Both the position numbers and the translations under genes were made by a program. From the NCBI GenBank assembly GCA_030019205.1, contig JASEFH010000006.1, positions 86,536 through 131,182 of the forward strand: DNA of 44,647 nt. Reading direction: 5' to 3'. Under the pieces are notes generated by a model. It ran no database searches. It was given only the letters and a program-made list of their open reading frames with translations, and was not told the origin of the DNA. This document shows, piece by piece, positions 33,005 to 44,647 of this stretch; the stretch's first letter is position 1, and each line of letters opens with the position of its first letter. The stretch is from Methanomicrobiales archaeon. GTDB lineage: Archaea > Halobacteriota > Methanomicrobia > Methanomicrobiales > JACTUA01.

Positions 33005-33039
33005 ACGTGTAGATGATCTATACAGAAATGTCTTATATT
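33005..33039 (+). promoter_or_regulatory. Dyad operator plus TATA box, copy A
   Basis: ACG, then TGTAGA (33008-33013)-TGATC-TATACA (33019-33024), with one G-T wobble position in the dyad, then GAAATGTC and the TATA box TTATATT (33033-33039). Transcription is expected to start near 33,060, about 130 bases before ATG 33195. Three related copies lie at 42187, 44545 and, on the minus strand, 40980. Confidence 0.75.
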
Positions 33040-33060
33040 GTGAAGGAAAAGGTTTCAGTG

Positions 33061-33194
33061 TAGCACGGGGTTCACAGTATCTTAGCCGGATAGGAGAACC
33101 CCGCTGCTGCCCGTAGGCATGACTATGTGCGCTGTTCACTCGTATAAGCGTTGCGTCGTGCCTCCATAAGAAAATCAGAATGGAGGTATTTAAT
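33061..33194 (+). ncRNA. Candidate structured 5' leader (possible riboswitch-like element), copy A
   Basis: Predicted stems are: P1 GGGGTTC (33067-33073) with GAACCCC (33096-33102); P2 AGGCATGA (33115-33122) with TCGTGCCT (33156-33163, one G-U pair); and P3, inside P2, CGCT with AGCG. An alternative stem pairs CCTCCAT (33161-33167) with ATGGAGG (33180-33186), which would bury the ribosome-binding site. P2 and the alternative share bases 33161-33163, so they exclude each other. A 30-base block (33093-33122) is identical to 42275-42304. The ligand or signal, if any, is unknown. Confidence 0.65.
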
Positions 33195-34151
33195 ATGAGC
33201 TCAATGAAAAATGGAGTCATCCTTCTTGCATTATTGCTTGCGCTAATGGCAATGGTGCCATTAGTGGTTGCACAGGAAGGTGGCGTGGAGAACAGTTCTC
33301 AGAACGATTCGAATTCGCAATACAGTTCATGTTGCAGTCCCTCGAACAGCAGTATAATCAGTTACCAGTTCCATTCTGGGAGTAGCAACTTACTGGATGA
33401 ATTCGGTATAAAGATCCAAGAAAAATCTGAAAATATGCCTCCTTTGAAGACGTACAGCGAATGTCCCGATCTCATTGATAGGATCATGAATGAAGTGAAA
33501 ATAACAGATGAGATTGATGCTGTTGTAGGTCTTTACGACTTCAAGGATCATCAAATTCTTCTTATCACCCAAGGGAATACTGTACTCGAAGTAACTTGGG
33601 ATGGAGAAAATGTGAACACATCTATAGTGATCCCCCAACTATTAGGTGAAAAAAGAGTATCATATAGTCCTAAAAAATTAATGCTTGAGGGACAGAATAT
33701 TGAAGAGTATTTCCTATATAGTGAGACACATACTCAATTATATTCGATTCCCATAGTATCCCCTGATTCTTCTAATATCCTAGCAGATACGTATTTAATG
33801 AAAGTAAGCCGTACTGATGAATTTAGAAATCTTCTTCAGCAGACAATCGCCAGCCTACATACAGAGGGCTGGTTCTATGTTAATTACGGCATCAGCATAA
33901 CTTCGATAGACAATCATAGTTATTGGTGGATTAATCCAGGATTTCCTGGTTGGACTAAATGCGAATACAGCACCGAAAATGTTGGAGTAGGAACAACATC
34001 GGGTCAACATAGAACTCATTTCAAATTTGGATGTATCTTTGATCGGTGTCAGATGGATATGTGGGTTAGCTGTGATGCATGGCTGAATACTGACAATGGC
34101 GGATCATCAAACCGCTGGGTCTCACTCTATCCAGATGGATGTTCAGGTTAG
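33195..34151 (+). CDS. Secreted protein of unknown function
   Basis: 318 residues. A Sec signal peptide (MSSMKNGVILLALLLALMAM, cleavage probably after VVA) is followed by an Asn/Ser-rich stretch and a mixed alpha/beta domain. The C-terminal part is Trp- and Cys-rich (WWINPGFPGWTKCEY, then FGCIFDRCQMDMWVSCDAW), with about six cysteines that may form disulfides outside the cell. No family is recognised. ATG 33195 has GGAGG eight bases upstream and sits at the end of the structured leader. Codon use is AT-rich, unlike the first 32 kb, which suggests transfer or accessory status. Confidence 0.8.
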   Translation: MSSMKNGVILLALLLALMAMVPLVVAQEGGVENSSQNDSNSQYSSCCSPSNSSIISYQFHSGSSNLLDEFGIKIQEKSENMPPLKTYSECPDLIDRIMNEVKITDEIDAVVGLYDFKDHQILLITQGNTVLEVTWDGENVNTSIVIPQLLGEKRVSYSPKKLMLEGQNIEEYFLYSETHTQLYSIPIVSPDSSNILADTYLMKVSRTDEFRNLLQQTIASLHTEGWFYVNYGISITSIDNHSYWWINPGFPGWTKCEYSTENVGVGTTSGQHRTHFKFGCIFDRCQMDMWVSCDAWLNTDNGGSSNRWVSLYPDGCSG

Positions 34152-38585: not shown

Positions 38586-39356
38586 TCAACATGGACTTTC
38601 AGCCTCGAGTCGTTCTTGAAAGTCTGACTCTTTACTCTCAATACAACTCTTAACATTTATATTGAGATAATATCTCGTAAATTTACCATCTTTTTCAGTT
38701 CGGACTATCTCGTCTTTTCTAAGACGTGTCATATACCACGAGATCGACGGTGCCGAAATATGGAGTTCCGTTGAGATATCCTTGCGTGTTGCGCCGGGGT
38801 GCCGATTAAGGATTTCAATGATCTCTTTTTCTTTAAAGTGGCGCAGATGATTAGTAATTTTAATCTCTTCCTGCGTGATAGACCACGTGTTTCTATAAAA
38901 TCGCACGAATCCCCTATCCTTTACGGCAATTATTTTTCCCACCAGCTGGAGGAGTGTGAGGTGATAGAGAGTCGTTCCGCTGTTGAGCTCGGTCTCGCGC
39001 GATATCGCCCTCGAATGGATCCCGGGCTGAGCGACAATGCACTCATAGATTTTTTTACGTTTTTCGTTCGATAATATATCCTTTTTACGCACTCTTTTAC
39101 AGCCAAGGGAAATCCAGAGGATGATCGATGCTATGATCTCTATGGGTAGTAATAGAATTGGTGAGATAGGTAGAAAGATGTCCAGAAGCATTACACGGAG
39201 AGGTAAATCGAAGAAAGAGATCGGAATTGTAGTATCTATCTCACTTGGCGGGTATCCCTCTGGTGCAAGTCTCCGATCGCTTGAAATATCTAATAAATAA
39301 CTCGCAGAGTAAAGAGCAGCCAACAACAGCACAATTAATACAATTTTCCGCTTCAT
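38586..39356 (-). CDS. Membrane-anchored winged-helix transcriptional regulator
   Basis: 256 residues from ATG 39356. One N-terminal membrane helix (about 3-19), an external loop, then a hydrophobic hairpin (about 53-87, LLDIFLPISPILLLPIEIIA) precede two winged-helix domains: IYECIVAQPGIHSRAISRET...GTTLYHLTLLQ and IIEILNRHPGATRKDISTEL...SISWYMTRLRK. This layout occurs in many methanogen and haloarchaeal regulators thought to sense envelope signals. It is encoded within the island carrying the dyad-controlled secreted-protein genes, 1.6 kb from the nearest dyad, so it is a candidate regulator of them (inference). No sensory kinase is next to it. Confidence 0.85.
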   Translation of the reverse strand: MKRKIVLIVLLLAALYSASYLLDISSDRRLAPEGYPPSEIDTTIPISFFDLPLRVMLLDIFLPISPILLLPIEIIASIILWISLGCKRVRKKDILSNEKRKKIYECIVAQPGIHSRAISRETELNSGTTLYHLTLLQLVGKIIAVKDRGFVRFYRNTWSITQEEIKITNHLRHFKEKEIIEILNRHPGATRKDISTELHISAPSISWYMTRLRKDEIVRTEKDGKFTRYYLNINVKSCIESKESDFQERLEAESPC

Positions 39357-39365
39357 ATTGTCCAC

Positions 39366-40481: not shown

Positions 40482-40919
40482 TTAGTATGCATTAAAATAG
40501 TATACTTCCGTCCCATACACGCGTTCTCCATAGACTTTGAACTGCCAGGTGCCGGGATAAATACCGGGGTTTGATACTGTAAGTTGAATTCGAGAATCGA
40601 TCACGCCGTCACTCCCATCTCGATATGGCCCGAACACAGGTCCGCTGCCAGGGGCATAGATGGTCAACGTCAATGAATTATCGGGAGAATCCCAATCGAC
40701 ATCAACCTTGAGCGAGCTTGTTCCTTGGTCAACGAGTTTCGAGTGCCACCGTGTCTGACCTTCTGTAATAGAATAATAAGCCCGGTCGATAACATTAGGC
40801 AGAGTGTGTGCATCCGAGGAGGGGAGAGAACTCTGTCCATTCTCTTCGTACGCAGAAACCAGCGGTGCAAACAGGGCCATCGATAGGATGGCTGCCAGCA
40901 ATAGACGATTCCGACTCAT
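40482..40919 (-). CDS. Secreted PPC-like beta-domain protein
   Basis: 145 residues. A signal peptide (MSRNRLLLAAILSMALFAPL, cleavage probably after VSA) is followed by a beta-sandwich resembling pre-peptidase C-terminal domains: LKVDVDWDSPDNSLTLTIYA, FGPYRDGSDGVIDSRI and NPGIYPGTWQFKVYG. It is likely exported and may bind surface partners. No catalytic motif is seen. ATG 40919 is about 35 bases downstream of a TATA box that carries the island dyad upstream; no Shine-Dalgarno sequence is present, so the transcript is leaderless or nearly so, unlike the two long-leader members of the same regulon. Confidence 0.82.
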   Translation of the reverse strand: MSRNRLLLAAILSMALFAPLVSAYEENGQSSLPSSDAHTLPNVIDRAYYSITEGQTRWHSKLVDQGTSSLKVDVDWDSPDNSLTLTIYAPGSGPVFGPYRDGSDGVIDSRIQLTVSNPGIYPGTWQFKVYGERVYGTEVYYFNAY

Positions 40920-40949: not shown

Positions 40950-40982
40950 CATATAACATTTCTGTAGAATTCATCTACACGT
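40950..40982 (-). promoter_or_regulatory. Dyad operator plus TATA box, copy D (minus strand)
   Basis: Read on the minus strand: ACG, then TGTAGA (40979-40974)-TGAAT-TCTACA (40968-40963), a perfect dyad, then GAAATG and the TATA box TTATATGG (40956 downward). It matches copies A-C in the dyad, the GAAAT element and the TATA box, with 6 instead of 8 bases between dyad and TATA. The structured leader does not follow. Confidence 0.75.
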
Positions 40983-42186: not shown

Positions 42187-42220
42187 CGTGTAGACGATCT
42201 CTACAGAAATCTCTTATAGT
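42187..42220 (+). promoter_or_regulatory. Dyad operator plus TATA box, copy B
   Basis: CG, then TGTAGA (42189-42194)-CGATC-TCTACA (42200-42205), a perfect dyad, then GAAATCTC and the TATA box TTATAGT (42214-42220). Transcription is expected near 42,243, about 132 bases before the GTG start of the lipase-like gene. Confidence 0.78.
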
Positions 42221-42241
42221 GTTAAAGTAAAGGTTTCCGTG

Positions 42242-42375
42242 TAGCAGAGGAGTTCCTCCCTTCTTGACCCGATCGGAGAACCCCGCTGCTGCCCGTAGGC
42301 ATGATAATCTCGCCTTTTGAGTATATAAGGGTACCGTCATGCCTCCGTGAGAATCTGAATGTGGAGGTATAGAAC
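42242..42375 (+). ncRNA. Candidate structured 5' leader, copy B
   Basis: The stems are homologous to copy A: P1 GGAGTTC (42249-42255) with GAACCCC (42278-42284), one A-C mismatch; P2 AGGCATGA (42297-42304) with TCATGCCT (42337-42344), fully paired; and P3 CCTT with AAGG, replacing CGCT/AGCG of copy A. The alternative stem pairs CCTCC (42342-42346) with GGAGG (42363-42367), the ribosome-binding site. P2 and the alternative share 42342-42344. A second TATA-like TATATAAGG (42322-42330) lies 50 bases before the start codon, as in copy A, so an internal promoter is an alternative explanation. Confidence 0.65.
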
Positions 42376-43836
42376 GTGAAAAACAGCTTTAAAACGCGGA
42401 TGCTCTCCGTGCTTCTGGCACTGCTGTTGATAGCCATGATGGTGATGCCCGCAGCATGTGCAGACGTCATAATGAAGCCGGTGGGGAAACCGGATGTGGA
42501 CGATGGCCAAACGATAACGAGGACCATTGTACTTCAGGCCAATGGGACTATCGTATCGGTGACAGAAGATGACGTTCCAATCGAAGGCATAGAACTCTCC
42601 GAACTGCCAAAATTTGAAGTTCCAGCACACGTGCCGACGGCTACACCTCCTCCCAATGGGCCGTTGAGAGAGGAGGATTGGGAATACCTGAAAACGGTCA
42701 TGACCGATCTCTCCGAGAAGGAGAGGGATGCACTTATCTCTGAGGCCCAGACGATCTTTGCAGGAAAATCCGAACTGACCCAGGACGAACAGAGGGAGAT
42801 CCTCTATCGCATCGGAAATTACATCGTAATGGCGACAGACGGCAATGAAGTAACTCCGCGGTGGAAGATTCAGCCTGGACACTGGCACCTCTCTACCACG
42901 GCCGGGAGAATCATGCGATACGTAACAGCGGCGCACAACACCACACTAGGGGATTACAGCGGATGGGCAGATGAAAATCGATTTTGGCCTCCAACTCCTG
43001 GCTTAGTACTCAATCGTCATTCCTGGGTGCTTGATGGTACCGTAATTCCTGGCTTTGACAATTATGGGCCTCTCTCTCTTAATTGGTCTTTGAATAATGC
43101 GAGATCTCAATTCAACGATTACAACGTTGATGAAGCATATGTTCAAATTGGAAAAGGACTTCATTATATTGAAGATCTGGGATGTCCTTACCATACTACT
43201 GGCGCCTATCTTTTACAGCACGATGCATATGAGAGCTGGGTTCAGTCGCACTGGACCGAATTAGGCCTGGACTCTGCAATCGACGTCACCAGTCACTTTG
43301 TAGTCACCGATCCAGCGGCGTCGGCAATAGCTCTCGCAGAAGTGTCACATCAAGTCCTACCCTATATCAATTGGACGATAGACACCGATCCGGATTGGCA
43401 GGATGACCCGTATGTGATCGCATATACTCAGCAGCTTCACACATTGACGGAACAGATGACCATCGGAATGCTGGTATATGCAAGCAAGTTCGAATCGCCC
43501 GATACAATTGGGCCCTATTCTGTTCCCATCTGGGACGGCCAGACCTCTTACGCCTTTGTCGACGATGTCGCCTGCAGCGACAGGATGCGGATCTCCACCC
43601 GGATCTCTCACACCTACATCGGGGATCTGGAGGTATGGCTGGGCTGGAAGGACGACTCTGAAGGCGTGTACCGGGAGGGAAAGATCTGGGATCGGCAGGG
43701 CGGAAGTGAGGACCACCTCAACATCGACGTCTACGTCAATGACTGGTATGATGTGCACGACTGGCGGCTTCGCGTGAAGGACAATGCTGCAGGAAATGAA
43801 GGTGCCATCACGGAGTTCTATGTGTTTATCGGATGA
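42376..43836 (+). CDS. Secreted zinc-dependent phospholipase C / S1-P1 nuclease-like protein with P-domain
   Basis: 486 residues from GTG 42376, with GGAGG eight bases upstream. A signal peptide (about 1-30, cleavage after ACA) leads into a helical domain with a metal-ligand array like that of zinc phospholipase C: GLHYIEDLGCPYHT (H263, D267, H273) and LQHDAYESWV (H282, E286), with HWHLSTTAG upstream. The C-terminal 120 residues resemble a proprotein-convertase P-domain: STRISHTYIGDLEVWLGW, then IWDRQGGSEDHLNIDVYVND. It probably hydrolyses phosphoesters outside the cell; the exact substrate (lipid or nucleic acid) is not determinable. Controlled by the dyad promoter and leader copy B. Confidence 0.83.
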   Translation: MKNSFKTRMLSVLLALLLIAMMVMPAACADVIMKPVGKPDVDDGQTITRTIVLQANGTIVSVTEDDVPIEGIELSELPKFEVPAHVPTATPPPNGPLREEDWEYLKTVMTDLSEKERDALISEAQTIFAGKSELTQDEQREILYRIGNYIVMATDGNEVTPRWKIQPGHWHLSTTAGRIMRYVTAAHNTTLGDYSGWADENRFWPPTPGLVLNRHSWVLDGTVIPGFDNYGPLSLNWSLNNARSQFNDYNVDEAYVQIGKGLHYIEDLGCPYHTTGAYLLQHDAYESWVQSHWTELGLDSAIDVTSHFVVTDPAASAIALAEVSHQVLPYINWTIDTDPDWQDDPYVIAYTQQLHTLTEQMTIGMLVYASKFESPDTIGPYSVPIWDGQTSYAFVDDVACSDRMRISTRISHTYIGDLEVWLGWKDDSEGVYREGKIWDRQGGSEDHLNIDVYVNDWYDVHDWRLRVKDNAAGNEGAITEFYVFIG

Positions 43837-44376: not shown

Positions 44377-44544
44377 GTCCTTCAAGAATAATCTGACATG
44401 ATTAGTATGATGGGTAGGGAGCACTATGCAAAAGCATCCCACTCAGGGCAGGGGTATACGGGGGTTCCACAGTTCTCCGTACCAGGAACATCACGGTATA
44501 TTGAAGACTATTTCATCTCACAGTATCGGCCCGCGTGCCACTGA

Positions 44545-44577
44545 CGTGTAGACGATCTCTACATAAATCTCTTATAG
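44545..44577 (+). promoter_or_regulatory. Dyad operator plus TATA box, copy C
   Basis: CG, then TGTAGA (44547-44552)-CGATC-TCTACA (44558-44563), then TAAATCTC and the TATA box TTATAG (44572-44577). It is nearly identical to copy B over its whole length and faces right, so it should drive a gene just beyond the window. Confidence 0.75.
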
Positions 44578-44599
44578 TGTTAAAGTAAAGGCTTCCGTG

Positions 44600-44647
44600 T
44601 AGCAGAGGAGTTCCTCCCTTCTTGACCCGATCGGAGAACCCCGCTGC
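44600..44647 (+). ncRNA. Candidate structured 5' leader, copy C (cut by window edge)
   Basis: The visible part is identical to copy B from GCAGAGGAGTTCC through GGAGAACCCCGCTGC, including both arms of stem P1. The rest and the controlled gene lie outside the window. Confidence 0.6.

Follow-up and report, generated by a model that had tools for sequence, protein, structure and literature searches.

A probable new family of cis-regulatory RNA in the leaders of secreted-protein genes of methanogenic archaea

Cis-regulatory RNAs that have been confirmed or even predicted in archaea are few (Eckert and Weinberg 2020, PMC7247131), and several described systems resemble parts of the leader element reported here. 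The archaeal ribosomal-protein leaders (S15 of Methanomicrobia, eL15 and L4; PMC7247131) are likewise cis-regulatory, come from related archaea and were described by covariation. Those of Eckert and Weinberg 2020 precede ribosomal-protein genes or operons (PMC7247131), whereas the present element precedes secreted-protein genes, as many as 24 in one genome, most of which show no relation to each other. The crcB (fluoride) and TPP riboswitches found in archaea (Weinberg 2010, PMC2864571) are also cis-regulatory RNAs in archaeal 5' UTRs, but neither a sequence nor a model match connects them to the leader and their gene context is different; methanogens are not mentioned in the main text of that 104-candidate paper (PMC2864571). 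Translational riboswitches (for instance the TPP, SAM-II and preQ1 classes) similarly lie in a 5' leader and work through alternative helices that mask or free the Shine-Dalgarno (SD) sequence. The leader differs from these in sequence and structure, has no Rfam match, is archaeal, and its genes have export and not a metabolic pathway in common. RNA thermometers (ROSE, fourU) likewise contain an SD-hiding hairpin, to which the leader adds a conserved upstream hairpin (P1) and a competing helix (P2).

The window analyzed is a 44,647-nucleotide stretch of a Methanomicrobiales genome (contig JASEFH010000006.1). An earlier note, made from the sequence alone, had placed two leaders of nearly equal length with a common 30-base core at 33061-33194 and 42242-42375. 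This held, as GGAGAACCCCGCTGCTGCCCGTAGGCATGA is identical in both copies, and we delimit leader A to 33060-33197 and leader B to 42241-42378 (Table 1). The pairings it had proposed were also confirmed, namely of AGGCATGA with TCGTGCCT (A) or TCATGCCT (B), a compensatory inner-stem change from CGCT/AGCG (A) to CCTT/AAGG (B), and a CCTCC able to pair either in the P2 stem or with GGAGG, since it overlaps the 3' strand of P2 and is complementary to GGAGG. Its statement that the copies differ outside the core needed correction: A and B are 81% identical across 280 bases, starting ~60 bases upstream and including the promoter, and are therefore paralogues, not two sequences with just a common core. 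The contig ends inside a third copy (44543-44647), and contig C56 also ends inside a leader copy; it is possible that such repeats break the assembly and hide further copies.

Table 1 Features of the leader loci in the window
Feature	Position	Strand	Description or basis
Promoter-upstream dyad CGTGTAGATGATCTATACAGAAAT, copy A	33006..33029	+	Probable transcription-factor site; genome pattern matches
TATA box TTATAT, copy A	33033..33038	+	~25 nt before P1; sequence
Hairpin P1, copy A	33060..33110	+	Arms 33060-33073 and 33096-33110; candidate sensor domain; strongest covariation
Possible competing hairpin H0 (TGCC-CGTA-GGCA), copy A	33108..33119	+	Shares bases with P1 outer pairs and P2 5' strand
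P2 5' strand AGGCATGA, copy A	33115..33122	+	Covariation beyond invariant GGCA
Inner helix P2b, copy A	33130..33150	+	CGCT 33130-33133 with AGCG 33147-33150; pair 140-168 E=0.008
P2 3' strand TCGTGCCT, copy A	33156..33163	+	Sequence pairing and covariation
Anti-Shine-Dalgarno CCTCC, copy A	33161..33165	+	Common to P2 and P3; family complementarity to GGAGG
Shine-Dalgarno GGAGG, copy A	33182..33186	+	Distance to start codon matches family
Gene after leader A	33195..34151	+	318-aa protein, signal peptide, no Pfam match
Promoter-upstream dyad, copy B	42187..42210	+	Pattern match
TATA-like TTATAG, copy B	42214..42219	+	Sequence
Hairpin P1, copy B	42241..42292	+	Arms 42241-42255 and 42278-42292; alignment with A and covariation
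Possible competing hairpin H0, copy B	42290..42301	+	Sequence
P2 5' strand AGGCATGA, copy B	42297..42304	+	Alignment with A
Inner helix P2b, copy B	42313..42330	+	CCTT 42313-42316 with AAGG 42327-42330; covarying family column pairs
P2 3' strand TCATGCCT, copy B	42337..42344	+	Alignment with A
Anti-Shine-Dalgarno CCTCC, copy B	42342..42346	+	Family complementarity to GGAGG
Shine-Dalgarno GGAGG, copy B	42363..42367	+	Sequence
Gene after leader B	42376..43836	+	486-aa signal-peptide protein, GTG start; weak zinc-dependent phospholipase C similarity, below Pfam cut-off
Third copy, cut by contig end	44545..44647	+	Promoter dyad 44545-44568; P1 from 44599

The same note had recognized no TPP, cobalamin, fluoride, SAM or other named class, and no Rfam family matches: Rfam 15 gave no match in the window, and relaxing the threshold to E<=10 produced none for either leader. 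When distant family members were searched against Rfam 15, the only match to reach a gathering score was an unrelated tRNA, and the best sub-threshold match was atoC (15.8 bits versus 50). We found no description of the leader element in the literature searched, which does not exclude an earlier mention elsewhere. Three outcomes had been named in advance as refutations. An Rfam match to a known class did not occur for A or B, nor did a lack of covariation with more sequences, as significance was reached when sequences were added. A transcription start downstream of 33122 / 42304 is not supported, the TATA box ~25 nt before P1 predicting a start at P1 that remains unmapped. The proposed layout of a translational riboswitch or protein-responsive leader is thus supported, with switching still inferred, as is whether a metabolite, a protein, an sRNA or temperature would be the signal.

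Used as a DNA query, leader A gave 13 matches in its own 2.73-Mb genome, which carries 9-10 copies of the leader RNA (10 by covariance model). A first covariance model, built from eight aligned own-genome copies, matched 64 of 232 Methanomicrobiales genomes. A second model from 66 sequences, with a threshold of E<=1e-3, found the leader in 98 of the 232 genomes (26 of 40 genera) and in 94 of 393 genomes sampled from across the phylum, Methanosarcina included, with phylum genomes without matches serving as the specificity control. Fully rescored hit genomes mostly hold 9-24 copies, 24 being the maximum, and the per-genome counts sum to roughly 400 copies in Methanomicrobiales alone. Within its own taxonomic family the leader RNA occurs only in this genome, and two f14 genomes with weak matches in the phylum search retained none at E<=1e-4 after full rescoring. 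The exact own-genome core pattern had no match in a scan of genome contigs. A looser pattern with two gaps matched named records of Methanoregula, Methanoculleus, Methanolinea, Methanosarcina and other Methanosarcinales, and had no match in viral contigs; the few bacterial records that matched it (Paracoccus, Rhizobium, Shimia, Streptomyces) were taken as chance. One record labelled Bacteroidetes bacterium B8_G4 (L151) holds two leader copies like those of Methanosarcinales, and its contig is likely a misbinned archaeal one. The family is wider than the two copies first seen; the earlier note had noticed neither this spread nor that export, and no pathway, unites the genes.

The RNA comprises hairpin P1, helix P2 with its inner helix P2b, and a 3' CCYYC able to pair with GGAGG (P3), and the junction between P1 and P2, GCCCGNAGGCA, is near-invariant. 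Bases between P1 and P2 could also form a short alternative hairpin, H0 (TGCC-CGNA-GGCA). Because bases are shared, H0 cannot coexist with the P1 outer pairs or with P2, nor can P2 coexist with P3. Covariation was assessed in 104 non-redundant sequences against a tree-aware permutation null that we implemented ourselves on the principle of R-scape rather than with that program, on alignments fitted to the covariance model. With the structure pairs alone tested, 11 of 29 reached E<0.05, and in the all-against-all comparison the top five of all column pairs were P1 pairs (E from 2e-6 to 4e-4). P2 and P2b covary more weakly than P1 (P2 pair 124-184 and P2b pair 140-168, E=0.008 each), and the first five pairs of P2 are nearly invariant and so give no proof by themselves. 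Changes on both sides of a pair were found in 476 cells, versus 171 +/- 10 when shuffled and 50-91 with the partner slid; 86% of cells were paired versus at most 46% when the partner was slid. A structure-blind MAFFT alignment, too divergent and with too little power, gave no significant pair, its top pair being a P1 pair with E=0.18. A conserved, covarying structure is present in these 5' leaders, and we consider it almost certain that they form a new family of cis-regulatory RNA.

H0 is a proposed addition that remains unproven, a possibility inferred from pairing potential: at least 98 of 104 sequences allow its three lower pairs and 70 of 104 the top pair, with almost no variation and no significant covariation across these 104 sequences. 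Loop-size variants (L055, L071, L088) retain the stem. As a separate observation, columns 112 (the N of the H0 loop) and 157 (the P2b apical loop) of alignment A8 show mostly complementary variation (G-T 28, T-A 27, A-T 11); this could reflect a loop-loop contact, which is not significant (E=8 over all pairs).

The 3' strand of P2 ends in CCYYC, whose possible alternative partner is the GGAGG ribosome-binding site. This complementarity is kept in 60 of 63 sequences. At the two positions directly 3' of the P2 strand, variation is almost confined to C and T in 60-61 of the 63, as would be required for pairing with an invariant G. Compensation beyond the five core pairs of P3 was not significant (83 versus 74.8 +/- 5.5), and P3 therefore rests on complementarity and not on covariation. 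By computing the energies of the P2 state (SD free) and the P3 state, we found a difference of no more than 3 kcal/mol for 47 of 75 sequences (63%; median -0.8). In a control with P2 arms and P3 loop shuffled and the cores kept, P3 was favoured by a median of 4.9 and only 28% were balanced; part of this shift toward P3 is expected simply from the loss of P2b. The energy model favours P3 in copy A and P2 in copy B. These energies leave out ligands, proteins and co-transcriptional folding.

What the downstream genes have in common is export, not a pathway. An N-terminal hydrophobic, signal-peptide-like segment is present in 156 of 163 distinct downstream ORFs, versus 38% of other ORFs at the same loci. 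Shared-word clustering leaves 115 dissimilar proteins of 140, and what they share is mainly a signal peptide ending in VPxVSA. Among 107 proteins Pfam assigns a minority (Peptidase_C39_2 9, M12 reprolysins 7, DUF6345 3, PKD 2, transglutaminase 2, subtilase 1); the mature proteins are mostly unrelated, some being extracellular proteases and most of unknown function. The element is therefore tied to export as a function rather than to one gene family. The element does not qualify as a ribosomal-protein leader, because the genes downstream encode signal-peptide proteins and not ribosomal proteins. A leader-peptide attenuator was also rejected: an ATG lies in P2 in just 56 of 96 sequences and ORF lengths scatter from 1 to >400 codons, leaving no conserved short ORF. 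In alignment A9, the VPxVSA signal peptide is seen in unrelated secreted proteins across methanogen orders, as if leader and signal peptide had moved as one module, which is a possibility only. Three copies (L042, at 1501-1720, L050 and L054) have the conserved RNA without a signal-peptide ORF directly behind the SD and with a strong GC hairpin and T-run; they are perhaps free-standing RNAs or decayed genes.

What is shown is the RNA with its covariation and position, the link to signal-peptide genes, and computed energies that are nearly equal for the two states. The explanation we favour as likely is a switch that acts in cis on translation of the methanogen exoproteome by hiding or exposing the ribosome site, in which the switching, its direction and its signal are inferred. 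Transcription would start near P1, a putative sensor hairpin that is followed by mutually exclusive helices, H0 (TGCC/GGCA) versus P2 (AGGCATGA/TCRTGCCT) and P2 versus P3 (CCTCC/GGAGG). With P2 formed, the anti-Shine-Dalgarno would be occupied and the ribosome site open (ON); with P2 broken, for example by H0, P3 would cover GGAGG (OFF). A signal at P1 or at the P1/H0/P2 junction may tip the balance, and could be an intracellular ligand or an RNA-binding factor tied to nutrient state or export load. This is a guess, in which we would place a small molecule first, followed by a protein or sRNA.

Two of the alternatives considered name a partner for the RNA. In a small-molecule or ion riboswitch, which specifies the sensor within the translational-switch explanation, P1 and the P1-P2 junction would bind a metabolite, ion or second messenger that stabilizes one fold. 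The architecture of a sensor hairpin joined to an SD-sequestering platform, the near-invariant junction, the covarying P1 and the computed bistability speak for it. Against it, no pathway or transporter common to the downstream genes hints at a ligand, and the P1 loops differ from family to family in both length and sequence, which is not the case for most ligand pockets; we stop just short of favouring it. It is also possible that a trans-acting protein or sRNA recognizes P1 or GGCAUGA in all these mRNAs and coordinates the exoproteome. The sharing of one element by as many as 24 mRNAs in a genome, which mostly encode unrelated proteins, a short near-invariant motif and the orphan copies not directly followed by an obvious signal-peptide ORF fit this reading; against it, no partner has been identified and the Rfam searches gave no match to a protein-binding RNA such as SRP RNA.

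The remaining alternatives do without a specific partner for the RNA. That P3 simply melts with temperature, as in an RNA thermometer, agrees with the covering of GGAGG by P3 and the closeness in energy of the P2 and P3 states, but a conserved, covarying P1 and an alternative P2 are unnecessary for a simple thermometer and P3 is not strengthened by compensated pairs, making this very improbable. A constitutive, non-switching element, with a role in stabilizing the mRNA or bringing it to the export machinery, would suit a common denominator of export and a similar VPxVSA-ending signal peptide rather than metabolism. It leaves unexplained both the conserved CCYYC complementary to the SD and the P2/P3 balance relative to shuffled arms, and we regard it as unlikely. 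A DNA-level artefact, in which promoter modules were recently duplicated and the inverted repeats are protein sites on DNA, draws on the promoter dyad also found at genes without the leader and on own-genome copies that are similar paralogues; it is practically ruled out by the ~10% of G-U among standard pairs, a feature that would be expected in RNA but that a DNA dyad should lack, and by the spread over several methanogen families with compensatory changes. Returning to the translational switch, a bolder version holds that the leader is a new and ancient archaeal riboswitch class, common to Methanomicrobiales and Methanosarcinaceae, which senses an intracellular signal and switches translation of many otherwise unrelated secreted proteins, so that export itself is regulated; the evidence tips slightly against going this far.

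The leader singles out many secreted proteins, most of them functionally uncharacterized, as a single co-regulated group, and it occurs in the tractable genus Methanosarcina. If the switching is true, it would offer a handle on the control of export in methanogens and a tool for regulated expression in them.

The start of transcription is predicted from the TATA position to lie at or just before P1, and is unmapped. Across 104 loci, TATA-like hexamers peak about -60 to -30 relative to P1, with 37 and 35 per 10 nt at -60 to -40 versus ~2-14 in most other bins, and a lesser rise at -30 to -20. An internal promoter was rejected, since the TATA-like TATAAG that A and B carry in the P2b loop is not conserved elsewhere in the family. 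The promoter dyad CGTGTAGAYGATCTNYACANAAAT has nine exact and two one-mismatch matches in the genome (11 in total), while a reversed control pattern has none, and three of the matches precede genes without the leader RNA. From these pattern matches we infer that the dyad marks a DNA-level regulon independent of the RNA leader. At 40958-40981 (-) in the window the same dyad, together with a TATA box, drives a short gene for a signal-peptide protein (40482-40919, -) that has almost no leader, and the dyad also lies upstream of C37:5737 and C54:406, where the RNA is absent. A regulator that seems to be membrane-anchored and has two winged-helix domains (HTH_24, HVO_0163-like) is encoded at 38586-39365 (-) in the window and at C37:6308-7081 (-) in L027; lying near leader clusters in both places, it is a candidate for binding the dyad. 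A similar promoter is present in Methanoculleus-type members of the leader family.
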